The notes below the pieces were generated by a model. It had not been told where the DNA came from and made no database searches. It was given only the letters and a program-made list of their open reading frames with translations. The translations under genes were made by a program, and so were the position numbers. A DNA stretch of 64,000 nt. Origin: Marinoscillum sp. 108. GTDB taxonomy: Bacteria > Bacteroidota > Bacteroidia > Cytophagales > Cyclobacteriaceae. The stretch is taken from the NCBI RefSeq assembly GCF_902506655.1, contig NZ_LR734808.1:2664501-2728500 (forward strand). The letters are read 5' to 3'. Numbering within the stretch: the first letter of the stretch is position 1; the number at the start of each line of letters is the position of its first letter. This document shows positions 9,432 through 58,821 of the stretch, in pieces.

Positions 9432-11483
9432 ATGATGAAAAAATCCTTTCAATACCAGCTAACGCTCATTTTCTTATTATTTGGGCTTAGCCTGAGTGCT
9501 CAGGAAACCGCACTAAATCTCATGCCCGTGCCTGAGCAAATAGAAATGGGAGAAGGACATTTTGTTATCACGAAGCGTTTTTCTATTTCTCTCACCGGCA
9601 CCTATCACGAGCGACTTGCTCATGAAGCTACCAGATTTTTGCGCAGACTGGATCAGAAAACCGCGTTGTTTTTTGACCAGCACAAGGTAAGTGGTGAGCG
9701 GACAAACGCCAGCCTCACCATCACCGTGGAGCGCCCGGGAGAGGTCAGGCTGCACGAAGACGAGAGCTATCAACTGCGAGTAGGTACTGAGTCCATTGAG
9801 TTAAATGCGCAGACGGATATAGGTGCCATCAGAGGATTGGAAACCCTCCTTCAGTTGGCAGGTGCCACCAATGGCCAAAGTACTTTCCCTGTACTCACCA
9901 TCAATGATTCACCGCGTTTTCATTGGCGAGGATTGATGATGGATGTGGCTCGTCACTTCATGCCGATGGATGTGCTGTATAGAAATTTGGATGCCATGGC
10001 TGCTGTGAAGCTGAACGTGCTTCACCTCCACCTGGTGGATGATCAGGGTTTCAGGTTTCCCACCAAAGCCTTCCCTGAGTTGTTGGAGCTTTCATCGGAC
10101 GGTCAGTATTATACCCGGGAGGATTTGGATGACATTATTGCGTATGCACATCAGCGGGGGATCCGGGTAATTCCCGAAATAGACGTACCAGGACACGCCA
10201 CGGCCATTCTGGTGGCCTTCCCCGAGCTCGGCAGCAAGGATACTACCTATACATTGGAACGCTATTCAGGCATATTTGACCCTACGCTGGATCCTACCAA
10301 CGATGCAGTATATGATTTTTTAGATCAGTTGTTTGCTGAAGTGGCTGAGGTTTTCCCCGATCCATATTTCCACATCGGGGGTGATGAAAACCTGGGGCGC
10401 CATTGGAATGAAAACAAGGATATTCAGGCTTTCATGAAAGCCAATAACCTGGCTACCAATCACGATTTGCAGACCTATTTCAACATCAGGGTGCAAAAAA
10501 TACTCAACAAGTATGGTAAACACACCATGGGCTGGGATGAGATCATGACACCTGAAATGCCCAAAAGTGCCATCATTCATTCATGGCGGGGCAACTGGGA
10601 AGGCCTGGTGGCCAAGCAGACTTTGTACGATGCAGCCAGAGCGGGTTATGAAACAGTGCTGTCCAACGGATATTATCTCGATTTGATGATGCCTGCCAGC
10701 CAGCACTACCTGGTGGATCCGGCGCCCGCTGATATGGACCTTACCCCAGCGGAGAGAAGCCGTATATTGGGTGGTGAGATGTGCATGTGGAGTGAGCTCG
10801 TCGTCCCTGAAACCATCGATAGCAGGCTATGGCCAAGAGCCGCGGCTGTGGCAGAGCGATTGTGGTCACCCGAGGACGTACAGGACGTACAGGACATGTA
10901 CAGGCGCCTGGCCATCATCAGTCTCCAACTGGAGCAGCTCGGTCTGAAGCATATTTCGTCTCGAAACGTCATTCTCAGGAAGTTGGCTAAAAGCAAAGAC
11001 ATAGAGCCACTAAAAGTACTGGTGGAGGTGGTAGAACCCATGAAAGGCTATACCAGAAATACGAATGGCACATTGTACACCACATTTTCCCCTTTCATGC
11101 TTTGGGCAGATGCTGCTACTGCCGATGCCACCGTGGCGAGGGTATTCAATGAAGACGTAGAGCGATACCTGTCGGGCAGTCTGGAAGCCAACCAGCTGCG
11201 AACACAATTGGACCTGTGGAGTAAGAATCATAAGAAAGTACTGCCCATCATCAATCGATCTCCGGCACTTTTGGAGATCGAATCACTTTCAGAAAACTTT
11301 TCCAGACTCGCTGTGATTGGTCTTGAGGCCATTGGGCTCATTGAGTCAGGCGGGAAGCCATCATCCGGATGGGTGACTCAGTGTCAGCAGGTGCTGGAGG
11401 AGGCCAGGGAGAATGGAGGGCGCACAGAGTTGCAGGTGATTAGTGGAATAGCCATGCTGGTGGATGAGTTGAAAGGTCTTTGA
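9432..11483 (+). CDS. Beta-N-acetylhexosaminidase, glycoside hydrolase family 20
   Basis: Removes terminal beta-linked GlcNAc or GalNAc from glycans by substrate-assisted catalysis. With the start at 9432 (ATGATGAAAAAA) the protein has 683 aa and a good signal peptide ending LSLSAQ. An ATG at 9372 would add 20 unlikely residues in front of it. A GH20b-like domain (about 25-150) precedes the TIM barrel, which has RGLMMDVARHFMP, HLHLVDDQGFRFP, RVIPEIDVPGHA and the catalytic Asp318-Glu319 pair in FHIGGDEN. The C-terminal Trp motif LWPRAAAVAERLWSP is present. It acts in the periplasm or at the outer membrane, presumably on material imported by the adjacent SusCD. Confidence 0.96.
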   Translation: MMKKSFQYQLTLIFLLFGLSLSAQETALNLMPVPEQIEMGEGHFVITKRFSISLTGTYHERLAHEATRFLRRLDQKTALFFDQHKVSGERTNASLTITVERPGEVRLHEDESYQLRVGTESIELNAQTDIGAIRGLETLLQLAGATNGQSTFPVLTINDSPRFHWRGLMMDVARHFMPMDVLYRNLDAMAAVKLNVLHLHLVDDQGFRFPTKAFPELLELSSDGQYYTREDLDDIIAYAHQRGIRVIPEIDVPGHATAILVAFPELGSKDTTYTLERYSGIFDPTLDPTNDAVYDFLDQLFAEVAEVFPDPYFHIGGDENLGRHWNENKDIQAFMKANNLATNHDLQTYFNIRVQKILNKYGKHTMGWDEIMTPEMPKSAIIHSWRGNWEGLVAKQTLYDAARAGYETVLSNGYYLDLMMPASQHYLVDPAPADMDLTPAERSRILGGEMCMWSELVVPETIDSRLWPRAAAVAERLWSPEDVQDVQDMYRRLAIISLQLEQLGLKHISSRNVILRKLAKSKDIEPLKVLVEVVEPMKGYTRNTNGTLYTTFSPFMLWADAATADATVARVFNEDVERYLSGSLEANQLRTQLDLWSKNHKKVLPIINRSPALLEIESLSENFSRLAVIGLEAIGLIESGGKPSSGWVTQCQQVLEEARENGGRTELQVISGIAMLVDELKGL

Positions 11484-48198: not shown

Positions 48199-48511
48199 GT
48201 CTGGATTTGGTCAGTTTCATAAATATAGTCATTGGATGGATAATACGCATGACCATATTGCACGATTGTTTTCGGCCTGTCCTTGATACGACTATGAATG
48301 AAGTAACCTCTCACCAAGGATGAATAGCGACGAATGGAATATTCTTTTGGCCGTTAAGTAAATGCCGGTAAAATATTTGGCCTTTGCTTTGGGGCGGACC
48401 TGATGGAGCATTGTCAAATTGGGAATTTCACATAGGAATTGTAAGTGATATCCATGATATTTGAAGGCCTATCTAACGTTAAATTATCAAAAACATAAAA
48501 ATTCAAAACAC
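48199..48511. promoter_or_regulatory. Divergent region before acs
   Basis: 313 bp between the kinase operon (leftward) and acs (rightward). It must carry both promoters. GATATTTG at 48456-48463 is one base from the Bacteroidota -7 consensus TAnnTTTG, but no -33 element is suitably placed. I find no copy of the AGCGAAAT half-site that occurs before aceB. Confidence 0.4.
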
Positions 48512-50410
48512 ATGAGTCACAAGATTCAAACCCTGAGCGGTTATATCCATGAATATCAGAAAAGCGTTCTCCAGCCCGAAGAGTTTTGGGGGAGAGTGGC
48601 AGAGTCTTTTCATTGGAAGAAGCCATGGTCAAAGGTACTGAAGTGGGATTTTGATGGTCCAGATGTCAACTGGTTTGTAGATGGGAAAATGAACATCACA
48701 GAGAATATCCTCGATCGTCATTTGTTCATCATGGGGGATAGACCAGCCATTATCTGGGAGCCCAATGAGCCGGGAGATGAGGTCGTTACCCTTACCTATA
48801 GGGAGCTTTACCATCAGGTTTGCCAGTTTGCCAATGCACTCAAGGCGCAGGGAGTGCAGAAGGGTGATCGGGTGATTATCTATATGCCCATGGTGCCTGA
48901 GGCCGCTGTGGCGATGCTCGCCTGTGCCCGGATCGGGGCGGTGCACTCGGTAGTGTTTGCCGGATTTTCCTCCACGGCTGTAGCAGATCGAATCAACGAC
49001 TGTGAAGCTAAAATGGTGCTGACCTCAGATGGGAACTACAGAGGAGCCAAGAGCATAGGAGTAAAAAGTGTGGTGGATGAGGCCCTGGAAAAGTCTACCT
49101 CAGTAGAGAAAGTGATTGTATTCAAAAGAACAGATACCGAGGTGACCATGAAGGAGGGACGGGATATTTGGTGGAGTGATGCCATCAAGGGCCAGCCCCT
49201 GGATTGCCCGGCAGAAGAAATGGACGCAGAGGATATGCTCTTTATCCTTTATACCTCAGGATCCACGGGTAAGCCTAAAGGGGTGGTGCACACCTGTGGT
49301 GGCTACATGGTCTATACCTATTACTCCTTTGTGAATGTGTTTCAGTATAATGTGGGTGATGTATACTGGTGTACGGCTGATGTTGGGTGGATCACCGGGC
49401 ATTCTTACATCGTATATGGCCCGTTGTTGGCTGGTGCCACCACGCTCATGTTCGAGGGAGTACCCACTTACCCGCATGTTGGTCGTTTTTGGGAGATCAT
49501 CGATAAGCACAAGGTCAATCAGTTTTATACAGCGCCTACGGCCATTCGTGCCCTTCAGGCCTATGGGTTGGAGCCGCTGGAGCCGTACAAGATGGACACT
49601 CTGAAGGTGATAGGATCTGTAGGGGAGCCTATCAATGAGGAGGCCTGGCACTGGTACCACGATCATGTGGGTAAAGGAAACTGCCCCTTGGTAGATACCT
49701 GGTGGCAAACGGAAACCGGAGGTATCATGATAGCGCCAATTGCTGGGGTGACCCCCAACAAACCCGCGCATGCCTCGTTGCCCCTGCCCGGGGTGCAGCC
49801 AATCATTGTTGATACCGAGGGAAAGGAGCTTCATGGAAACAATGTGGAGGGAAACCTATGTATCAAGTTCCCATGGCCCGGTATGATCAGAACCACCTAT
49901 GGGGATCATGATCGATGCAAACAGACCTATTTTTCCACTTACAAGGGACTCTACTTTACAGGAGATGGAGCCAAGAGGGACCATGATGGCTATTTGAGAA
50001 TCCTGGGTCGTGTAGATGATGTGATCAATGTGTCAGGTCACAGAATGGGCACTGCCGAAGTAGAAAATGCTATCAATGAGCATCCTAAGGTGATCGAGTC
50101 CGCTGTGGTGGGCTACCCTCATGATGTGAAAGGTCAGGGGATTTATGCCTACGTGATCTGTGACATGGAGGGCCGCTCAGAAGAGAGTTTGAAAAATGAA
50201 ATCAGGGAAACCGTGAGCAAGATTATCGGGCCAATTGCCAAACCTGATAAGGTGCAGATTGTTCCCGGACTGCCTAAAACCCGCTCCGGAAAAATCATGC
50301 GCAGGATTCTCCGAAAGGTAGCTTCTGGGGAAGCAGATCAGTTGGGTGATACTTCCACCCTGCTCAATCCTGAGGTGGTAGAAGCTATTGTGAACGGAGC
50401 AAGTAAATAA
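48512..50410 (+). CDS. acs: Acetyl-CoA synthetase
   Basis: Converts acetate, ATP and CoA to acetyl-CoA through acetyl-AMP. The ATG at 48512 (MSHKIQTLSGYIHE) gives 632 aa, close to the family's 650; an in-frame ATG at 48461 adds 17 unlikely residues. Motifs: ILYTSGSTGKPKGVVHT (P-loop), DVGWITGHSYIVYGPL, DTWWQTETGG, GRVDDVINVSGHRMGT and KTRSGKIMRR, where the Lys before IMRR is the site acetylated by Pat-type enzymes. The CoA-ligase Trp in DTWWQTE favours acetate. It works with the symporter at 43.8 kb and the glyoxylate shunt genes at 54-57 kb. Confidence 0.97.
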   Translation: MSHKIQTLSGYIHEYQKSVLQPEEFWGRVAESFHWKKPWSKVLKWDFDGPDVNWFVDGKMNITENILDRHLFIMGDRPAIIWEPNEPGDEVVTLTYRELYHQVCQFANALKAQGVQKGDRVIIYMPMVPEAAVAMLACARIGAVHSVVFAGFSSTAVADRINDCEAKMVLTSDGNYRGAKSIGVKSVVDEALEKSTSVEKVIVFKRTDTEVTMKEGRDIWWSDAIKGQPLDCPAEEMDAEDMLFILYTSGSTGKPKGVVHTCGGYMVYTYYSFVNVFQYNVGDVYWCTADVGWITGHSYIVYGPLLAGATTLMFEGVPTYPHVGRFWEIIDKHKVNQFYTAPTAIRALQAYGLEPLEPYKMDTLKVIGSVGEPINEEAWHWYHDHVGKGNCPLVDTWWQTETGGIMIAPIAGVTPNKPAHASLPLPGVQPIIVDTEGKELHGNNVEGNLCIKFPWPGMIRTTYGDHDRCKQTYFSTYKGLYFTGDGAKRDHDGYLRILGRVDDVINVSGHRMGTAEVENAINEHPKVIESAVVGYPHDVKGQGIYAYVICDMEGRSEESLKNEIRETVSKIIGPIAKPDKVQIVPGLPKTRSGKIMRRILRKVASGEADQLGDTSTLLNPEVVEAIVNGASK

Positions 50411-50439: not shown

Positions 50440-50469
50440 GGTTCTGGTTTTAGCGTATAGATTTGAAGT

Positions 50470-50548
50470 AACCACGGGGTGCCGTTATTCGGCTGAGATG
50501 ATACCCGTTGAACCTGATCTGGGTAATGCCAGCGTAGGAATATCGGTT
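50470..50548 (+). promoter_or_regulatory. TPP riboswitch (THI element)
   Basis: Near-perfect match to the thi-box: GGGGTGCC (50476-50483), GGCTGAGATGATACCC (50491-50506), GAACCTGATCTGGGTAATGC (50510-50529) and CAGCGTAGGAA (50530-50540). AACC (50470-50473) can pair with GGTT (50545-50548) as helix P1. It binds thiamine pyrophosphate in the nascent RNA. An intrinsic terminator 32 nt downstream is the likely expression platform, so the five genes that follow should be shut off when TPP is abundant. Confidence 0.94.
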
Positions 50549-50580
50549 GACTCGTAGTAAGATTATAAAGTCATTAGTAT

Positions 50581-50624
50581 AAACCGTATTGTCCGCGCAT
50601 GCCTGGACGGTACGGTTTTTTTTA
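50581..50624 (+). terminator. Riboswitch-controlled intrinsic terminator
   Basis: AAACCGTATTGTCC (50581-50594) pairs with GGACGGTACGGTTT (50605-50618), counting two U-G pairs, followed by a T-run to 50623. It stands between the TPP aptamer and the first gene of the operon, 24 bp before the ATG. Confidence 0.9.
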
Positions 50625-50647
50625 TTCCATTTTTTAAAAATGATGAG

Positions 50648-51355
50648 ATGGCTTTTGATGAGTTAGTAAAACAGAACCTGACCAATTGGCAGGGCAGAAA
50701 AGAGTGGTTTTTCAACCGCGAACACACCGATACCTATGAGCTCTGGTACGAGGGGCGGTATAAGCGTGCTGAGATTTTTCAGAAAAAAATTATTGCGGAT
50801 CGGCTTCAAAAGGACCCCAGGGTGAAGACACTTCTCGAGTTTGGATGTGGGACCACACGATTCACCAGGTGGTGGCACGAGATTGGGATAGAGGCTACCG
50901 GTGGTGATTTGAGTCCCTTCATGCTGGCTCAGGGCAGACAGCTCTTCGGAGGTGACCTGGTGCTGGCAGACTCTCATCACATGCCCTTTCGTGACAACAC
51001 CTTCGATGCGGTGGCCTTCATTACCACTTTTGAATACTATAAAGACCCGGTGAAGGTGATTAGGGAGGCGGCCCGTGTGGGCAAACACGGGATAGTCTTC
51101 GGGATGATGAACAGAAACACGCCCAAATATGTGCGCCGCAGGATGCAGCAGATGGTTGGTAAGAATCCTTTTTATGTAACGGCCAATTTTTACACCCCAA
51201 AATCATTACTCAAAGTGATTGATATCGCTCTCCAGGGGGAAGATTATACGGTAGAATGGCAGTGTACAGGATTGCCCAAGTGGTTTCCCGTACAGGAATG
51301 GCATGTGCCAGTAGGTGATTTTTTCGGTGTTTATGTCAAAAGGAATCAACCATGA
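50648..51355 (+). CDS. SAM-dependent methyltransferase, first gene of the TPP-riboswitch operon
   Basis: Class I methyltransferase of 235 aa. Motif I is TLLEFGCGTTRFTRWW, the acidic residue after strand 2 is in GGDLSPFMLAQGR, and motif II/III region is LVLADSHHMPFRDNTFDAVAF, typical of the UbiE/Methyltransf_11 type. The N-terminal 50 residues (NWQGRKEWFFNREHTDTYELWYEG) are tyrosine/tryptophan-rich and may form the substrate cap. The substrate is unknown. Its stop overlaps the next start (ATGA, 51352). A Trm112-like protein is encoded three genes on; such proteins commonly activate methyltransferases, so it may be this enzyme's partner. Confidence 0.88.
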   Translation: MAFDELVKQNLTNWQGRKEWFFNREHTDTYELWYEGRYKRAEIFQKKIIADRLQKDPRVKTLLEFGCGTTRFTRWWHEIGIEATGGDLSPFMLAQGRQLFGGDLVLADSHHMPFRDNTFDAVAFITTFEYYKDPVKVIREAARVGKHGIVFGMMNRNTPKYVRRRMQQMVGKNPFYVTANFYTPKSLLKVIDIALQGEDYTVEWQCTGLPKWFPVQEWHVPVGDFFGVYVKRNQP

Positions 51356-52413
51356 TTTCAGGATTTCCGGATACAGGCAAAATCCAGGAGGATTTTCTCA
51401 AAAGCCACGTTTTCCCATCCACCGGGGCTGTGAGACAGGAGGTGGTAAGCGGCCCTCAATATGGCGTGGATGTAAGTGTCATAGCGCTTCATGGAGGTCA
51501 GTCGCTTGTCACGGCTACTGACCCTGCCACTTTAATTCCAACACTCGGGTTGCAGGAATCGGCATGGTTGACGGTTCATTTGGTAGCATCGGATGTGGCC
51601 ACAGCAGGGTGTTTGCCCCAGTATGCTCAGTTTTGCCTCAACTTACCGGAAACCTTCACAGCGGCTGAGTTTCACTCCTATTGGAATCACATCAGTACTT
51701 ATTGTGATCAGCTGGGAGTGGCCATTACTGGTGGGCATACCGGAAGGATTGCTGGTCAGAATAGTACCATTTCAGGAGGAGTGACCATGATGAGCACTAT
51801 GCCCTCGGAAGAGGTTTTGCTGAGCCGGATGGCTCGTCCTGGCGATAGTCTCATTCTGGTGAAGGAGCCAGCCATTATTAGCACCGCCATCCTGGCCCTT
51901 AGCTTTCCCGAAACAATACTTAAGAAATGTGGCAAGGAGGTACTGGAGGCTGGTCAGGCACTCTTCTATGCATCATCAGCGGTAGATGCCGCCATGTCAG
52001 CTATTTCTGTCGGGATTCACTCGGAGGGTGTGCGAGCGATTCATGACATCACCGAGGGGGGTGTGATGGGAGCCATATGGGAAATGATGACGGCTGCAGG
52101 GTGTGGAGTTCAGGTGGATGTAGCAGCCCTTCCCCGGGGGTACGCTCAGGACAGTATTTGTGGGGCTTTTGGTATTGATCCTCTTCGTAGTGTAGGTGCA
52201 GGTGCGTTGCTTCTGGCGGTAGCTCCGGGGCGGGTGTCCGGGATTATTAATCAGTTGCATCAGGACGGCCACCAGGCGGTTAAGATTGGGGAAGTCACGG
52301 AGGAAAGGGCCGGCAGATGGCTGGCTGGAGAAGTACCTAGTCCATTGACTCCCCCGGGTGTTGATCCTTATTGGGCGGCTTTTTTAGACGCTCTAAATCG
52401 CGGATGGAAATGA
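51352..52413 (+). CDS. AIR synthase-related protein (PurM/HypE/ThiL fold)
   Basis: ATP-binding-type protein of 353 aa with the PurM/HypE/ThiL/SelD two-domain fold. The N-domain includes VTATDPATLIPTLG and VHLVASDVATAGCLPQYA, equivalent to the metal/ATP-binding Asp strand of HypE and ThiL, then VAITGGHTGR. The C-domain has RPGDSLILVKEPAI, AIHDITEGGVMGAIWEM and FGIDPLRSVGAGALLLAV, the last being close to HypE. The N-terminal glycine-rich DDA segment of ThiL/HypE is replaced by GPQYGVDVSV. So it is a diverged member, not clearly thiamine-phosphate kinase. It is flanked by ATGA overlaps on both sides. Position under a TPP riboswitch suggests an ATP-dependent step on a thiamine-related compound. 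Confidence 0.88.
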   Translation: MISGFPDTGKIQEDFLKSHVFPSTGAVRQEVVSGPQYGVDVSVIALHGGQSLVTATDPATLIPTLGLQESAWLTVHLVASDVATAGCLPQYAQFCLNLPETFTAAEFHSYWNHISTYCDQLGVAITGGHTGRIAGQNSTISGGVTMMSTMPSEEVLLSRMARPGDSLILVKEPAIISTAILALSFPETILKKCGKEVLEAGQALFYASSAVDAAMSAISVGIHSEGVRAIHDITEGGVMGAIWEMMTAAGCGVQVDVAALPRGYAQDSICGAFGIDPLRSVGAGALLLAVAPGRVSGIINQLHQDGHQAVKIGEVTEERAGRWLAGEVPSPLTPPGVDPYWAAFLDALNRGWK

Positions 52414-53018
52414 AGCCGAAGCTAAAGGGAGTTTATTTAGTGCTGGATCCTGCTGAGGGGTTTGACGCCTTGGAAAACAGATTACTCCATATTCTGAGTG
52501 GAGGCATAGGTGCCATCCAGGTGTGGGATCACTGGCATCCGGATCAGGATCGTCACGAGTTTCTATACAGGTTGCAAGCGGTGTGTGGTCAGGTACCTAT
52601 TCTGATCAACAACAATCTGGAGCTGGCCTCCCTACCGGGCATTCAGGGTGTCCATTTCGACAGGGAGGAGGATTTACCGAGCCCGGAATGCACTTTCAAA
52701 AAGATAATTGGCCTTACAGTGAGTACACATGCCGACTGGGTGGCCCTCAGAAAAAAAGGTGTAGACTATATCAGTTTTTGTGCGATGTATCCCTCCTCAT
52801 CGGTGGATACCTGTGAGCTGGTATCCCCGGATGTTGTGCGGGAGGCCTGTGAGCATTTTGACGGTTCGGTATTCGCATCCGGGGGGATCAGTCTTGAAAA
52901 CGCCGGAGTAATAGCATCGCTTGGAGTGTCAGGGGTTGCCCTGATATCCGCATTGTGGAAAGCAGAGAATCCGCTGGACACGACCATAAAGTTTAATCAA
53001 ATCATATCAAAACCATGA
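52410..53018 (+). CDS. Divergent ThiE/TenI-like protein
   Basis: TIM-barrel protein of the thiamine phosphate synthase/TenI superfamily. The start at 52410 (ATGA overlap; an ATG at 52404 is also possible) gives 202 aa. Recognisable strands: GVYLVLDP, IGAIQVWDHW, VPILINNNLELA, IQGVHFDREEDLP, IIGLTVSTHADW, GVDYISFCAMYP and VFASGGISLENAGVIASLGVSGVALISALW. Compared with ThiE, the QxRxK motif is replaced by QVWDHW, Asn-Asp by Asn-Asn, and the TxTK phosphate loop by SSSVDTC. The His in STH is kept, as in TenI. Canonical thiamine phosphate synthase activity therefore looks doubtful. It may be a tautomerase or act on a modified thiazole or pyrimidine. Confidence 0.87.
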   Translation: MKPKLKGVYLVLDPAEGFDALENRLLHILSGGIGAIQVWDHWHPDQDRHEFLYRLQAVCGQVPILINNNLELASLPGIQGVHFDREEDLPSPECTFKKIIGLTVSTHADWVALRKKGVDYISFCAMYPSSSVDTCELVSPDVVREACEHFDGSVFASGGISLENAGVIASLGVSGVALISALWKAENPLDTTIKFNQIISKP

Positions 53019-53284
53019 AGAAAGCATTTTTCAAGAAATTGTGTTGCCCTTTGGATAAGAGCGATCTGGAAATAAAAGTGATCAAGGAAGCTGGTCAGGA
53101 GATACTCGAAGGGCTCATGACCTGCACCTCCTGTGGCAGGTATTATCCCATTGTACATGGTATTCCGATCATGTCGCCTGATGAATACCGTGAGCCGGCC
53201 CTGGAAACTCCCATACTGGAGCGATGGGGACTGGGAAAGGGAGAAGTCACCAATTTCCGGCTGACCGAGAAGGTAGAATCGTAG
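53015..53284 (+). CDS. Trm112-like zinc-binding protein
   Basis: 89-aa small zinc protein. Its first half has FKKLCCPLDKSDLEIKV and later CTSCGRYYPIVHGIPIM, the Trm112/UPF0434 pattern (CPxxxxxL ... CxxCGxxYPIxxGIPIM). An extra C-terminal tail of about 25 residues (ETPILERWGLGKGEVTNFR) is present. Trm112 proteins act as activators or stabilisers of methyltransferases; the operon's own methyltransferase is an obvious candidate partner. The ATG overlaps the previous stop (ATGA). Confidence 0.9.
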   Translation: MKKAFFKKLCCPLDKSDLEIKVIKEAGQEILEGLMTCTSCGRYYPIVHGIPIMSPDEYREPALETPILERWGLGKGEVTNFRLTEKVES

Positions 53285-53305
53285 TGTTTTTTTAGCTTCG
53301 AACAT

Positions 53306-54283
53306 ATGGAATACAGAATGTTCGGAGAATCAGGGTGCAGTGTATCATGTATGGGGCTCGGCCTTGCGGCACTGGGCAGGCCCGGCTATATCAACCTGGG
53401 TCACCGCGAAGACCTGGGGAGTGAGTATGATCCATCTAAAATGGAAGCTCAAACACATGCGATGCTTTCCCTGGCCAGAGCCCAGGGGATTAATTATTTT
53501 GATGCTGCTCAATCTTATGGAAAGGCGGAAACTTTCCTGAGCACATGGCTTATGGCCCACCCTCGGGAAGAGGTGGTGGTCGGGTCAAAATGGGGATACT
53601 ACTACACCGCGGACTGGTCCGTGCAGGCGGATAAGCATGAAGTGAAGGAGCATACTCTGGAGCGTTTGAATCTGCAATGGCCGGAGAGCGAGCAGCGTTT
53701 GGGCACCGCACTGAAAATTTATCAGATTCACTCAGCCACCCTGGAGAGTGGTGTATTGGAGAACAGGGCAGTACTGCAGCGTCTGGAGGAAATTCGGGAG
53801 ATGGGTTATGTGATCGGACTTTCTCTGAGCGGCGTCCAGCAAAGTGTGGTGTTGGAGAAGGCCCTTGCGGTGCAGGTGGGAGGAAAGCCACTTTTTGGCT
53901 CAGTGCAGGCCACCTATAATTGTTTGGAGCAGTCTGCTGGCGAGGCCTTGCAAAAGGCCTTTGATCGGGGATTGGGAGTAATTGTCAAAGAGGGACTGGC
54001 CAATGGCAGGTTGACAAGCAGGAGTACCGGGGCTTATTTAAAGACCCTCACAGATATGGCCCAGAGCTATCAGGTTACCGAGGATGCCATTGCACTGGCT
54101 TACGTCCTGAGCAAGCCATTTGTGTCAGTGGTGCTGAGTGGTGCGGCTGTTCCGGCACATCTCATTTCCAATGTTAAAGGTTCTGAAATCAAACTCTCTC
54201 AGCAAGACATCAGGGTATTGGATGGCCTGAAGGTGAAACCAGAGCATTATTGGGCTGAGCGAGCCAGCCTGGCCTGGAACTAG
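53306..54283 (+). CDS. Aldo/keto reductase
   Basis: NAD(P)H-dependent oxidoreductase of 325 aa with the AKR TIM barrel. Catalytic tetrad: Asp and Tyr in NYFDAAQSYGKAE, Lys in VVVGSKWGYY and His in IYQIHSATLE. The cofactor-binding end is VVLSGAAVPAHLISNVKG. An insertion near the N-terminus (YINLGHREDLGSEYDPSKM) is longer than in many AKRs and is similar to the L-galactose dehydrogenase-like group. It is the last gene of the TPP-riboswitch unit, 21 bp after the Trm112-like gene, and is followed by a terminator. It likely reduces or oxidises an intermediate of the same pathway; the substrate is unknown. Confidence 0.92.
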   Translation: MEYRMFGESGCSVSCMGLGLAALGRPGYINLGHREDLGSEYDPSKMEAQTHAMLSLARAQGINYFDAAQSYGKAETFLSTWLMAHPREEVVVGSKWGYYYTADWSVQADKHEVKEHTLERLNLQWPESEQRLGTALKIYQIHSATLESGVLENRAVLQRLEEIREMGYVIGLSLSGVQQSVVLEKALAVQVGGKPLFGSVQATYNCLEQSAGEALQKAFDRGLGVIVKEGLANGRLTSRSTGAYLKTLTDMAQSYQVTEDAIALAYVLSKPFVSVVLSGAAVPAHLISNVKGSEIKLSQQDIRVLDGLKVKPEHYWAERASLAWN

Positions 54284-54332: not shown

Positions 54333-55610
54333 TTAAAATTGCTCCACTTCAGTGCTTCCCTCCATGGCTACGGTGGAAGCCCTTCCTTGCTGTACGGTAT
54401 TCTGAATGGCGTCAAAATAACCCGTACCCACAAAGGCCTGATGTTTCACAGCTTTGAAACCTGAGTCCAGCAGCGCAAACTCCCGCTCCTGAAGCTCGGA
54501 ATACCCGGCCATACCACGCTCCTTGTAAGCTTTGGAGAGCTCAAACATGGAAGTGTTGAGTGCGTGGAATCCTGCCAGCGTGATAAACTGAAACTTGTAT
54601 CCCATTTCTGCAAGGTTTTCCCTGAAGGTAAACATCTCGGATTTAGTCAGGTGTGCTGCCCAGTTGAACGATGGTGAGCAATTGTAAGCCAGCATCTGAT
54701 CAGGAAACTCCGCTTTGATGGCCTGCGCAAATTCTCTGGCCAGACCCAAATCCGGGTTGGATGTTTCCATCCATAGGAGGTCTGAGTAGGGCGCGTAAGC
54801 CAGTCCCCTGGCGATTCCGGCTTCTACTCCATTGGTCACTTCAAAGAAACCCTCATTGGTGCGACCTCCTGTCAGGAACCGGTGGTCACGCTTGTCAATA
54901 TCAGAAGTGATAAGCGTGGCGGCATCTGCATCCGTCCTGGCAATCAACAGCGTTGGTGTGTTCATCACATCTGCGGCCAGGCGAGCTGCTACCAGCTTGT
55001 CAATGGCCTCCTGCGTGGGTACCAGTACCTTTCCGCCCAGGTGACCACACTTCTTGGCTGAGCTCAGTTGGTCTTCGAAGTGGACACCCGCAGCTCCGGC
55101 TTCTATCATGGCTTTCATCAGCTCAAAGGCGTTCAGGTTTCCTCCGAATCCGGCTTCTGCATCAGCAACGATGGGCGCCAGCCAGTCAATGCTGCTGTCT
55201 CCATTCAGGTTTTCGATCTGATCTCTTCGGAGTAGGGCATTGTTGATGCGCTTAACCACACTGGGAACAGAGTCAGCCGGGTAGAGTGACTGATCGGGGT
55301 ACATGGCTCCGGCGAGGTTAGCGTCCGCAGCCACCTGCCACCCACTGAGGTAGATGGCTTCCAGGCCAGCGGCAATTTCCTGTACCGCCTGGTTGCCGGT
55401 GAGGGCACCCAGCCCCGCCACAAAGGGTTTGTCATTCAGCTTTTTCCATAGTTTTTCGGCCGTAATTCTGGCGATGGAATGCTCTATTGGGACAGATCCC
55501 TGCAAGTTGACCACTTCTTCCGCGGTATATGGGCGATGGATGTTTTTCCACCTGGGGTTCTCGTCCCAGTCTTTTTGGATTTTTTGGATTCTTTCGGTTT
55601 TCATGATCAT
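54333..55610 (-). CDS. aceA: Isocitrate lyase
   Basis: Cleaves isocitrate to glyoxylate and succinate, the first glyoxylate shunt step. It has 425 aa, typical of the bacterial short form. Motifs: [44 protein letters not shown], and the active-site [17 protein letters not shown] (KKCGH with the catalytic Cys), then [10 protein letters not shown]. It begins 1 bp after the malate synthase stop, so the two are one operon. The start is taken as the ATG at 55610; a second ATG two codons in is equally possible. Confidence 0.98.
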
Positions 55611-55611
55611 C

Positions 55612-57225
55612 TTAGTTTAAATAGGTATAGGCGTTAATAGTTAAAAATTCTTCAAGGGTGTCATTCTTCACGAGGCGATCGAAGATCTCTATGGCTTCTT
55701 CAAATCGGCCGGAGTGATAAGTTTCTTCTCCCAGCATGGCTTTTATCTTCACCAATTCTTCTCGCTTGAGTTTTTCATACAGATCCACAGTGATGGCTAC
55801 TCCACTCACGGTATAGCAGTGGCGGTGAATCCACTGCCAGAGCTGGGAGCGTGAAATCTCCGCCGTGGCGGCATCCTCCATCAGGTGGTATAGCGCTGCT
55901 GCACCGACTCCCCTGAGCCAGCTTTCCACGTAGAGAATTCCCACGTTGATGTTGGTGCGTATTCCCTCCTCGGTGATGGTACCGGTGGGGGTTTGCACCA
56001 GGTCCTTAGCAGTCACATCCACATCGCGACGCAGGTTGTGAAACTGATTGGGCCAGGGCATGTGCCGGTCAAAGACCTCTTTAGCCACTGACACCAGCCC
56101 TGGATGGGCCACCCAGGTGCCATCATGTCCGTTCATGACTTCCCTGAGTTTGTCCAGGCGTACTTTTTCCAGGGCGGCAGTATTGGCTTCCGGATCGTCT
56201 TTGATCGGAATCTGTGCGGCCATTCCGCCCATGGCATGGGCCCCGCGCTTGTGGCAGGTCTGGATCACCAGGTCAGAATAGGCTTTCATAAAAGGCACCG
56301 TCATATTGACCTGATCTCTGTTCGGCAAAATTTTATGACGATTGTTTCTGAATTTTTTGATGTAGGAAAAAATGTAATCCCAACGACCACAATTCAATCC
56401 GGCAGAATGATGCTGCAATTCGTGCAGGATTTCATGAAGTTCAAAGGCTGCAGGGAGCGTTTCTATCAATACCGTGGCTTTGATGGTGCCCTGAGGAATG
56501 CCGAGATAGTTTTGTGCGAACACAAATACTTCATTCCAAAGGCGTGCTTCCAGGTGGCTCTCCAGCTTAGGCAGATAGAAGTATGGGCCAGATCCCCTTT
56601 TGATCAGTTCACGTACATTGTGAAAAAAGTAGAGTCCAAAGTCTACCAGCGCTCCGCTAGCGGGTTGCTCATCTATCTGGAGGTGCTTTTCCTCAAGGTG
56701 CCAGCCTCTGGGGCGCACGAATAAGGTGGCCGTTTCTTTGTTGAGCTGGTAAGTTTTCCCGTTGGGGTTTACGAATTCAATCTCTCTGCGGATGGCGTCC
56801 CGGAGATTGATCTGACCTTCCATGTTGGTGGACCAATAGGGCGCATTGCTATCCTCAAAGTCTGCCATGAATACCTTGGCACCAGAGTTCAGGGCATTGA
56901 TGACCATTTTACGATCTACCGGCCCGGTGATCTCCACACGTCGGTCCCAGATGTCTTCAGGGATGGGTGCCACTGTCCAGTCTGATTCTCTGATGTCCTG
57001 TGTTTCAGGTAGGAAATTGGGCATGACCCCTGCATCAAAAGCTTCCTGACGAATGACCCTATCGCGAAGGAGCTTCTTGCGTCGCTCATTGAAACGCACG
57101 TGGAGTGCCTGTAAAAACTCGAGTGCCTCAGGAGTGAGGATCTCCATGTAAGGGGCCGGTGTGGCTCCTTTTATCTGGATTCCCAGGGGTGTTTGGGTTT
57201 CCGGGATGTGTGCTTCTGTGATCAT
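55612..57225 (-). CDS. aceB: Malate synthase A
   Basis: Condenses glyoxylate and acetyl-CoA to malate, completing the glyoxylate shunt. It has 537 aa, the size of form A enzymes. Motifs: [63 protein letters not shown] (catalytic Arg and Asp), and [17 protein letters not shown]. It is first in the aceB-aceA operon, with a divergently transcribed XRE-type regulator 105 bp upstream and a palindromic operator array in between, indicating regulated expression during growth on C2 compounds. Confidence 0.98.
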
Positions 57226-57261
57226 AATAAGGTGATTATCTGATTAAACATGATCAAATAT

Positions 57262-57309
57262 AGCGAAATATATTAAACAGCGAAATTTCGCTAATACTTT
57301 TATTTCGCT
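57262..57309. promoter_or_regulatory. Symmetric AGCGAAAT operator array between aceB and the XRE regulator
   Basis: Four half-sites of AGCGAAAT in perfect dyad order: AGCGAAAT (57262-57269), 9 bp, the palindrome AGCGAAATTTCGCT (57279-57292), 9 bp, ATTTCGCT (57302-57309). The centre is at 57285.5, with half-sites repeating every 17 bp. It lies 36 bp before the aceB start and 21 bp before the regulator's ATG, so it is a likely operator for the regulator on both genes. Confidence 0.82.
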
Positions 57310-57330
57310 TTTTTGAATTATTTTTGGCGA

Positions 57331-58821
57331 ATGCCCAAAGAGATATTTGAATTCAAGCTCATTTTCGGTCTCAAACTCAAGGAAATCCGAAATGAAAAAG
57401 GGATATCCTATCAGGAACTGCGTGAGAAGACCGGCCTGTCACTGTCTTACCTGAGTGAGATTGAAAATGGAAAGAAATACCCCAAAGGAGATAAAATCAT
57501 GATTCTGGCTAAAGCCCTCGGGGTGAGCTATGATGAGTTGGTATCACTGAAGGTGCCGAGGAAACTCGAACCCATAGTGAACCTGATCCAGTCTGATTTT
57601 TTTAAGGCCTTCCCGCTGGAGCAGTTTGGCTTGAATCCTCAGAAGCTGGTTGAGATCATTTCTTATGATCCGGAGAAAATCAATGCTTTCGTCAATACTG
57701 TGCTTCAGGTGTCACGCAATTTTGAGCTGAAGCAAGAAAGTTTCTATTATGCAGCCCTCCGATCCTATCAGGAGCTGCATCAGAATTACTTTGCCGATTT
57801 GGAAGAGGCCGTAGAGGAGCTTCATTTGGAATTTCCGGAGCTCAAGGAGATTCCTTTCAATGAAAAGCTGCTAACGGGTATTTTACTGGAAATAGGTGTT
57901 CGCACGGGGATGGATGAACTCCAGAAATACCCTTCCTTGCGTAACGTGCGCTCTCTATATGATGAAAAACAACGCCTGCTACATATCAACCGGGGGCTCA
58001 ACTCCGGTCAGATGAATTTTCTTCTGGGTCGTGAAATTGCCTTTCAGTGGACTAAGGTAAAGAACAGGCCAATGAGCACACCACCTTATGGTGACCATAC
58101 GTTTGAGGAGATTCTTAACAATTACAGGGCTTCCTATTTTTCAGCGGCACTCATGATGCCACAGGAGGAGGTCGTAAGGGACATCAGGGCGGTGGGCGAT
58201 ATGAAAGTATGGGATCCGAAGGTGCTACTGGGTTTTTTGGATAAGTACGATGTGACCCCCGAGATGATTATGCAGCGCCTCACCAATATCCTTCCTGCGG
58301 TGTTTGGCTATGAGAATTTGTTCTTCCTGCGATTTGTGGGGAAAGGACCGGATTATTTTACTTTGACCAAAGAGCTGCACCTCACGCGCCTTCATAACCC
58401 GCATGGCAATGAGCTGAACGAACATTATTGTCGACGATGGATTTCATTGGATGTTATTCGGGATCTATATAAAGCACGAGAATCTGATCCGGACATCAAA
58501 TACCTGGCGGGTATTCAGCGATCATTTTACCATGGCACCACCAATGAATACCTGTGCCTGTCCATCGCGTTCCCCAATGTGTCTAACCCTGAGGAGGCTG
58601 TAAGTGTGACCATTGGTTTTCTGGTGGATGGCGCCCTCGAGCGAAGAATTAAGTTTTTGAGGGATCCCAACATCGTGAGGCGTGAAGTCAATACAACGTG
58701 TGAGCGCTGTCCCATCATGGACTGTAAGGAGCGTGCGGTGGAGCCTTATGTACATGCTGCCAAAACGGAAGAGCACTTGATTCAGGAGGACATTTCTACG
58801 CTACTGGGGATAGAGAAATAA
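57331..58821 (+). CDS. XRE-family regulator of the RamB/ScfR type, likely glyoxylate shunt regulator
   Basis: DNA-binding regulator of 496 aa. The ATG at 57331 (MPKEIFEFKLIFGLKLKEIR) is preferred to an upstream TTG at 57313. An HTH_XRE domain spans about 10-65 (GISYQELREKTGLSLSYLSEIENGKKYP). The middle shows an ImmA/IrrE-like region (HINRGLNSGQMNFLLGREIAFQW) without the HExxH metal motif. The C-terminal DUF2083-like domain has CERCPIMDCKERAV, a cluster that may bind metal. This architecture matches RamB and short-chain fatty acyl regulators that control acetate and propionate genes. It is divergent from aceBA with a shared operator; it probably senses an acyl-CoA or related metabolite. Confidence 0.9.
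   Translation: MPKEIFEFKLIFGLKLKEIRNEKGISYQELREKTGLSLSYLSEIENGKKYPKGDKIMILAKALGVSYDELVSLKVPRKLEPIVNLIQSDFFKAFPLEQFGLNPQKLVEIISYDPEKINAFVNTVLQVSRNFELKQESFYYAALRSYQELHQNYFADLEEAVEELHLEFPELKEIPFNEKLLTGILLEIGVRTGMDELQKYPSLRNVRSLYDEKQRLLHINRGLNSGQMNFLLGREIAFQWTKVKNRPMSTPPYGDHTFEEILNNYRASYFSAALMMPQEEVVRDIRAVGDMKVWDPKVLLGFLDKYDVTPEMIMQRLTNILPAVFGYENLFFLRFVGKGPDYFTLTKELHLTRLHNPHGNELNEHYCRRWISLDVIRDLYKARESDPDIKYLAGIQRSFYHGTTNEYLCLSIAFPNVSNPEEAVSVTIGFLVDGALERRIKFLRDPNIVRREVNTTCERCPIMDCKERAVEPYVHAAKTEEHLIQEDISTLLGIEK

Follow-up and report, generated by a model that had tools for sequence, protein, structure and literature searches.

The regulons under TPP-riboswitch control have been charted well, and most of their genes serve the synthesis or uptake of thiamine or of thiamine precursors. 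The Bacteroidetes thiamine operons thiSEGCHF-tenI and OMthi-pnuT-tnr3 are controlled by TPP riboswitches, and the paper on them mentions no methyltransferase (PMC5613172). The characterized partners of Trm112 proteins, to which one product of the present locus is related, act on the translation machinery (PMC5372719). No description of the four-gene set reported below was found in the open-access main texts searched, among them PMC5613172, PMC3766115, and PMC6416309.

TPP riboswitch and gene layout

The locus lies in a 64,000-nucleotide stretch of the Marinoscillum sp. 108 genome (the window) and comprises the following features:

50465..50560, + strand: TPP riboswitch aptamer (THI element, RF00059); cmscan 69.0 bits, E 1.8e-11, full-length
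50581..50618, + strand: predicted intrinsic terminator separating the aptamer from the MT gene (expression platform); stem of 15 pairs, then a T run
50648..51355, + strand: class I SAM-dependent methyltransferase (MT), 235 aa; Pfam Methyltransf_11, 6.6e-19
51352..52413, + strand: ATP-dependent enzyme of the AIR-synthase superfamily (AIRS-like; HypE/ThiL/SelD-like), 353 aa; Pfam AIRS and AIRS_C
52410..53018, + strand: ThiE-fold protein with altered active site (ThiE-like), 202 aa; Pfam TMP-TENI, 1.1e-26
53015..53284, + strand: Trm112-like protein, putative MT partner, 89 aa; Pfam Trm112p, 1.8e-7
53306..54283, + strand: aldo/keto reductase (AKR), downstream passenger, 325 aa; Pfam Aldo_ket_red, 3.4e-27

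The first-pass annotation had described a near-consensus TPP aptamer and a terminator ahead of five tightly spaced genes, and this layout was confirmed. The aptamer matches the covariance model over its full length and scores above the RF00059 gathering score of 54.3 bits, and the Rfam scan of the window returned no other match. The terminator hairpin dominates the predicted leader fold (z -2.26). Terminator-like matches as a class are not more common in the sequence than in shuffled versions of it; the hairpin at 50581-50618 has by far the longest stem among them and occupies the position expected for a riboswitch terminator. The five genes that follow on the same strand are joined by three ATGA junctions, and the last gap, between the Trm112-like and AKR genes, is 21 bp. 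All five domain calls (methyltransferase, HypE/ThiL-fold, ThiE/TenI-like, Trm112-like, and aldo/keto reductase) hold at scores over the Pfam cut-offs. Likewise, the reported absence of thiC, thiD, and thiG is borne out by the Pfam assignments, which include neither these genes nor their partners in the five-gene stretch.

Conservation and distribution of the cassette

Relatives of the cassette were collected with the MT, and 80 GTDB loci were inspected (residue counts given below take in 81 members). The MT, AIRS-like, ThiE-like, and Trm112 genes occur in identical order in all 80 loci, each with a TPP riboswitch upstream as detected by the covariance model. In a second recovery with the AIRS-like profile in Cytophagales, the four genes were complete in 29 of 30 loci, the remaining one being cut by a contig end, and a TPP riboswitch was present at 29/30. 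Of the outcomes that the first-pass annotation had named as refuting its reading, two did not occur: the aptamer fits the covariance model, and homologous operons retain the riboswitch in both recoveries. MT and Trm112 never part from the ThiE-like/AIRS-like pair in complete loci. The AIRS-like search yielded full-strength matches and one contig-end fragment, with no intermediate divergent forms in Cytophagales. No further conserved neighbor (transporter or kinase) was found around the related cassettes, and no exporter or resistance gene was linked to them.

None of the 80 related loci, the closest ones (L070 and L071) included, contains an AKR homologue. The conserved unit is four genes, and the AKR is a local passenger. 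The unit of five genes proposed originally is therefore ruled out, while its four-gene core stands, and, as the AKR is not conserved, no AKR step should belong to the pathway.

The cassette was detected in 34 of 390 Cytophagales genomes. The window's own genome was the sole carrier in a class-wide sample of 148 genomes, so the cassette is uncommon overall. The tree mixes orders, which suggests transfer within Bacteroidota. Carriage by phages or plasmids was rejected, as relatives of the MT were found in neither the viral contigs nor the plasmid records searched. A defense role was also rejected; the sole match was that of a generic methyltransferase to a PADLOC model.

Thiamine genes elsewhere in carrier genomes

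The presence of ThiC, ThiD, and TMP-TENI proteins was checked genome-wide in the 34 carriers. ThiC is missing in 31 and ThiD in 30 of them, and neither is present in the window's genome. The cassette ThiE-like protein is the sole TMP-TENI protein in 28/34, which answers to the earlier question of whether carriers lack another canonical ThiE. However, non-carrier relatives are also often without ThiC, ThiD, or ThiE (Fisher p 0.05-0.08, for genomes that are not independent), and since many of them lack another ThiE as well, the link between the cassette and this absence is weak. Six carriers (G000, G002, G005, G013, G017, and G034) also possess TPP-controlled uptake-type genes; in these, the cassette adds to import. 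An AIRS-like query of carrier G000 recovered SelD only and no canonical ThiL. THI5-like proteins were considered as a source of HMP and set aside, as they occur in few genomes and are not tied to the cassette.

The cassette proteins

The ThiE-like protein (AF2 model, pLDDT 94.5) has ThiE as its nearest solved fold, with a Z score of 23.6 to 3O15 (rmsd 2.3 over 200 residues), compared with 20.6 for TenI, a comparison of fold scores alone. The GG of the phosphate loop is kept in 81/81 members, Q57 is kept, and N92 is mostly kept. In contrast, R59 is replaced by Trp in 80/81, K61 by Asn or His in 77/81, D112 by Pro in 67/81, and K159 by Ala, Val, or Ser in most of the 81. These four belong to the pyrophosphate/Mg site of ThiE, and their loss in most or nearly all members makes classical TMP synthesis by this protein unlikely. 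Two new cysteines, Cys124 and Cys135, are invariant across the 81 members. The protein also scores 90.5 bits against an NCBIfam thiE equivalog cut-off of 145.1, and canonical ThiE function is disfavored by both the active-site residues and this score.

The AIRS-like protein (AF2 model, pLDDT 92.9) is closest in fold to HypE (Z 35.4), followed by ThiL (Z 29.0 to 3C9U/3C9T, complexes with TMP or TPP). Its best NCBIfam match by E value is thiL, yet at 63.1 bits it lies far under the cut-off of 184.15, which disfavors canonical ThiL function; the hypE cut-off is not reached either (60 versus 251.6 bits). In HypE, a C-terminal cysteine carries the carbamoyl/cyano group. The C terminus of the AIRS-like protein is LNRGWK, without a cysteine tail, and the family consensus is ...AFFxAxKxGWK.

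The MT is the best conserved cassette member (mean identity of 78% over 81 members), and its SAM motif, LEFGCGTTRF, is conserved. The Trm112-like protein passes the Trm112p Pfam cut-off (31.4 versus 22 bits) and reaches 71.2 bits against the NCBIfam archaeal Trm112 cut-off of 77; its best structural relatives are archaeal Trm112 structures. Chains of 6F5Z are matched by both the MT and the Trm112 profiles. As the two genes occur together wherever the locus is complete, the Trm112-like protein is considered a putative MT partner.

Proposed function and alternative explanations

We lean slightly toward a hitherto undescribed branch of B1 metabolism. In it, the MT (activated by Trm112), an ATP-dependent enzyme of the AIRS superfamily, and a ThiE barrel put to new use would restore or salvage thiamine, or else produce a thiamine-like cofactor, starting from something other than HMP-PP plus thiazole phosphate. 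A thiamine-related pathway not yet described had been proposed earlier for five genes; the proposal fails for that unit, as related loci lack the AKR, and is strengthened for the four, because the cassette is obligate, the ThiE active site is altered, and ThiC and ThiD are usually absent. The best explanation, to which we give even odds, is a TPP-repressed, ATP- and SAM-dependent auxiliary cassette that members of the Bacteroidota share and that salvages or remodels a thiamine-type phosphate, mostly in organisms unable to make the thiamine pyrimidine. Judging from the RNA, low TPP would permit read-through at the riboswitch, and the invariant co-occurrence of the four proteins points to one pathway. 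The ThiE-like barrel may bind thiazole phosphate or a thiamine-phosphate-like substrate, having lost the residues for the HMP-pyrophosphate/Mg2+ part. ThiL, HypE, and PurM each use ATP for phosphorylation or cyclodehydration in their own pathways, and the AIRS-superfamily enzyme, which shares their fold, could perform either on the substrate. The MT, presumably kept active by Trm112 in view of their constant linkage, would methylate an intermediate, and the product would enter the TPP pool, so that TPP could shut the operon off. Counted against salvage or remodeling are the frequent lack of ThiC, ThiD, and ThiE in non-carrier relatives, three carriers that also have a full-looking canonical thiamine set, and the methylation step, for which we know of no place in thiamine salvage.

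The cassette could instead encode an ordinary late thiamine pathway, with the ThiE-like protein making TMP and the AIRS-like protein acting as a ThiL-type kinase to give TPP from salvaged pyrimidine and thiazole, and MT and Trm112 being separate. Adjoining ThiE and ThiL folds under a TPP riboswitch, ThiE as the nearest solved fold of the one protein and the Z score of 29 of the other to ThiL complexes, the lack of another ThiE in most carriers, and the missing canonical ThiL in G000 are all consistent with this. However, the pyrophosphate-site replacements in nearly all members, the scores far under the thiE and thiL cut-offs, the 30 carriers without a ThiD to make HMP-PP, and the constant presence of MT and Trm112 argue against it, and we consider it unlikely, albeit the strongest of the alternatives. 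If the cassette, at scarce TPP, produced not TPP itself but a methylated compound resembling thiamine, be it an antivitamin, a signal, or an alternative cofactor, this would suit the strong conservation of a SAM methyltransferase, an enzyme type that to our knowledge has no part in thiamine synthesis, and the patchy, order-mixing spread of a cassette rare within its class. As TPP repression better fits TPP supply and no exporter or resistance gene accompanies the cassette, this too seems rather unlikely.

PurM and HypE, which share the AIRS fold, are ATP-dependent cyclization/dehydration enzymes. The AIRS-like protein might, by a PurM-type cyclodehydration, re-close N-formyl ring-opened thiamine phosphate, with the ThiE-like barrel and the MT on the thiazole side. 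Such thiamine repair would agree with the retained thiazole-phosphate loop and with the carriers' dependence on an imported vitamin prone to degradation; however, it leaves methylation unexplained, and we hold it to be improbable. More improbable still is that the MT-Trm112 pair modifies RNA or protein and that translation is tied to TPP levels through the operon. Characterized Trm112 partners do act on the translation machinery (PMC5372719), and the closest relatives of the cassette Trm112 are of archaeal type, but constant linkage to ThiE-fold and AIRS-fold proteins and a riboswitch points to small-molecule work.

If such an undescribed B1 branch exists, the obligate cassette with its SAM methylation, seen mostly in thiamine-pyrimidine auxotrophs, would stand either for a new route to the vitamin or for a novel compound derived from thiamine. 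Annotating its genes as thiamine phosphate synthase or thiamine-phosphate kinase may mis-call such auxotrophs as producers. Cultured genera with the cassette (Runella, Mucilaginibacter, Pontibacter, Algoriphagus, and Chryseobacterium) make it a compact, testable gene set.

Comparison with known systems

The cassette shares its phylum, TPP riboswitch control, and a TMP-TENI protein with the Bacteroidetes thiSEGCHF-tenI and OMthi-pnuT-tnr3 operons but differs from them in having no thiS, thiG, thiC, thiH, thiF, or transport genes (PMC5613172). With ThiE (thiamine phosphate synthase; B. subtilis 2TPS, 3O15), the cassette protein has the barrel fold, Q57, mostly N92, and the GG phosphate loop in common; it departs from ThiE in its pyrophosphate site, its score below the thiE cut-off, and the absence of ThiD from most carriers. 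The AIRS-like protein resembles ThiL (thiamine-phosphate kinase) in superfamily, in fold match to TMP/TPP complexes, and in top NCBIfam E value, whereas its bit score falls far short of that family. HypE (hydrogenase maturation) is closest in fold and has a similar C-terminal domain sequence, but the cassette enzyme has no C-terminal cysteine tail, lies far under the hypE cut-off, and is accompanied by a riboswitch and thiamine-type neighbors. As in archaeal Trm112-methyltransferase pairs (6F5Z, 6ZXW), the gene of a Trm112 relative invariably accompanies that of a class I methyltransferase; unlike those, the putative cassette pair is fixed to TPP-controlled ThiE-fold and AIRS-fold proteins.

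Organization and conservation of the operon

The TPP aptamer and terminator that the first-pass annotation had placed before five coupled genes were both recovered, in the following arrangement.

50465-54283, forward strand: TPP aptamer, terminator-like hairpin and five same-strand genes
50581-50618, forward strand: terminator-like hairpin with a T run
53306-54283, forward strand: aldo/keto reductase (AKR) gene, the fifth of the operon

The aptamer matched RF00059 over its full length (69.0 bits against a gathering threshold of 54.3; E = 1.8e-11), and the gene junctions consist of ATGA at three positions and a 21-bp gap at the fourth. Pfam domains, all scoring above cut-offs, were Methyltransf_11 (methyltransferase, MT), AIRS/AIRS_C (AIRS-like protein), TMP-TENI (ThiE-like protein), Trm112p and Aldo_ket_red. 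The operon is surrounded by an acetate/glyoxylate region (48461-50410 and 54333-58821; genes named by eye from translations), with an acetyl-CoA synthetase-like gene upstream and, downstream on the opposite strand, isocitrate lyase-like and malate synthase-like genes followed by an Xre-type regulator-like gene.

The conserved unit is four genes, not the five originally described. A search of GTDB genomes with an MT profile confirmed 193 related stretches, and in each of the best 80 of these 193 the MT, AIRS-like, ThiE-like and Trm112 genes were found in this order on one strand, with median gaps of -1, -10 and -4 bp (longest-ORF starts). As the AKR gene was present in 0/80 of these loci, and the genes downstream of the cassette were unrelated in loci L070 and L071, whose MTs share 93% and 91% identity, respectively, with that of the window, it was ruled out as a cassette member. 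An AIRS-like profile, used as an independent query on a partly overlapping sample (shared genera and genomes, e.g., Runella), was positive in 34/390 Cytophagales genomes; all four genes occurred in 29 of the 30 loci returned, the remaining one stopping at a contig edge. No other conserved gene was found around the cassette in a neighbourhood comparison of related loci.

The same gene order behind THI elements, which the annotation had proposed to look for in other Bacteroidota, was confirmed for the four genes. A covariance model trained on the window aptamer together with 20 related leaders (21 sequences) placed a TPP element directly upstream of MT in 80/80 loci, 20 of which match by construction as training loci, and in 29/30 loci of the second set. 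Locus L202 (genome G240) carries a complete cassette with no TPP riboswitch detected by this model upstream of MT at 761; that MT sits close behind another gene.

All 80 loci belong to Bacteroidota (Cytophagales, Sphingobacteriales, Flavobacteriales, Chitinophagales and Marinilabiliales). In a rapid phylogeny of the concatenated cassette proteins, Sunxiuqinia clustered with Runella, and Sphingobacterium stood apart from other Sphingobacteriales. The order label changed 11 times against a minimum of 4, which suggests transfer of the cassette as a block, although part of such an excess can stem from binning errors, paralogy or long branches. Pairwise distances among the four proteins were correlated (r = 0.68-0.83).

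Thiamine genes in cassette carriers

Carriers are marginally poorer in canonical thiamine genes than related non-carriers. ThiC was present in 3/34 carrier genomes, compared with 7/24 related non-carriers, and ThiD-family proteins were found in 4/34 carriers, the weaker one in G195 probably being a pyridoxal-type kinase. As to whether carriers lack thiE elsewhere, which the annotation had proposed to check, 28/34 had no TMP-TENI protein besides that of the cassette (6/34 did), but the contrast with non-carriers was marginal (Fisher p = 0.08, 0.06 and 0.05 for the canonical genes, with genomes non-independent). In the Marinoscillum genome, searches for ThiC and ThiD found neither, and the operon ThiE-like protein is the sole TMP-TENI protein.

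Although most of the 58 related genomes searched seem dependent on an external thiamine supply, TPK_catalytic (PF04263), the domain of the enzyme that makes TPP from thiamine, was detected in only 5 of them. Where riboswitch leaders were listed for a carrier, another TPP riboswitch stands before genes of uptake type, in most cases for a TonB receptor next to PnuC-like proteins; the cassette therefore supplements the import of thiamine rather than replacing it.

A TonB receptor follows the second TPP riboswitch of the Marinoscillum genome (L028:5166-10303, at about 3.27 Mb), and a PnuC-family transporter and an AAA_28 (NadR-like) protein are encoded directly upstream. An ORF in this locus (9668-10303, MSSHHIV...) had no significant Pfam match, and its profile matches the Bacteroides protein 2OMK only weakly (E = 0.035). 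The product is possibly a divergent thiamine pyrophosphokinase. Relatives of this ORF occur at the thiamine loci L161 and L162. A second, different TMP-TENI protein is encoded in Mucilaginibacter/Pedobacter carriers without ThiC or ThiD (L160:4258-4881, L161:4225-4857 and L162:4205-4831), in L161 between a TonB receptor and the MSSHHIV ORF. Locus L065 (G017) encodes an NMT1/THI5-like protein (513-1445) with no obvious signal peptide; two weak TPP riboswitch matches flank the gene, with a PnuC/AAA pair on one side and a TonB receptor on the other.

Possible function of the cassette

The best-supported reading, to which we give about an even chance, is that of a module under TPP repression in which a thiamine-type phosphate is salvaged or remodelled with ATP and S-adenosylmethionine (SAM). 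The riboswitch, the terminator, the conserved cassette, the folds and the loss of residues are observations of this analysis; the TPP response, this substrate class and the order of steps are what we infer from them. MT is the best conserved cassette protein (mean identity, 78%, compared with 54% for AIRS-like, 53% for Trm112 and 43% for ThiE-like), and its function must therefore be under tight constraint. Trm112 is a known methyltransferase activator (PMC5372719), and the constant gene linkage points to a putative MT-Trm112 complex; the nearest relatives of the cassette Trm112 are archaeal Trm112 proteins. Methylation of RNA or protein by such a pair is quite improbable. A methylated thiamine-like metabolite as the product is doubtful, and repair of ring-opened or degraded thiamine somewhat more so.

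By term search, the main texts of a regulon survey (PMC3766115) and a Bacteroidetes thiamine-acquisition study (PMC5613172) do not mention methyltransferase, nor does that of the former mention Trm112. A full-text literature search, with subscription papers and supplements outside its scope, found no published account of the four-gene set, and it is in this sense that the cassette is undescribed.

Comparison with known enzymes

It is unlikely, if slightly less so than a methylated product, that the cassette is an ordinary ThiE/ThiL pair with the remaining genes as bystanders. The closest solved fold to the AIRS-like model (AlphaFold2 [AF2]; pLDDT, 92.9) is HypE (Z = 35.4); ThiL with TMP or TPP (Z = 29.0), SelD (Z = 28.9) and AIR synthetases (Z of about 20-24) follow. 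The protein falls far under the thiL, hypE and selD cut-offs and lacks the C-terminal cysteine of HypE. Its invariant Lys10 aligns with the N-terminal Lys of Escherichia coli SelD in a profile alignment. An ATP-dependent reaction is likely.

The ThiE-like AF2 model (pLDDT, 94.5) is nearest among solved folds to Bacillus subtilis ThiE (Z = 23.6; rmsd, 2.3 over 200 residues), ahead of TenI (Z = 20.6). The protein scores below the thiE cut-off (90.5 versus 145.1). In B. subtilis numbering (QFREK anchored as Q57, a choice that mutant chains at S130 and K159 bear out), R59 is replaced by Trp in 80/81 members, K61 by Asn/His in 77/81, D112 by Pro in 67/81 and K159 mostly by Ala, Val or Ser; we take these four residues to be the ThiE pyrophosphate/Mg site. 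S130 is Thr in 81/81, and W39, D84, C124 and C135 are near-invariant. The GG phosphate loop (81/81) and Q57 are retained, as mostly is N92. From these residues, the ThiE-like protein should still bind a thiazole phosphate but probably does not react with HMP-PP as ThiE is known to do.
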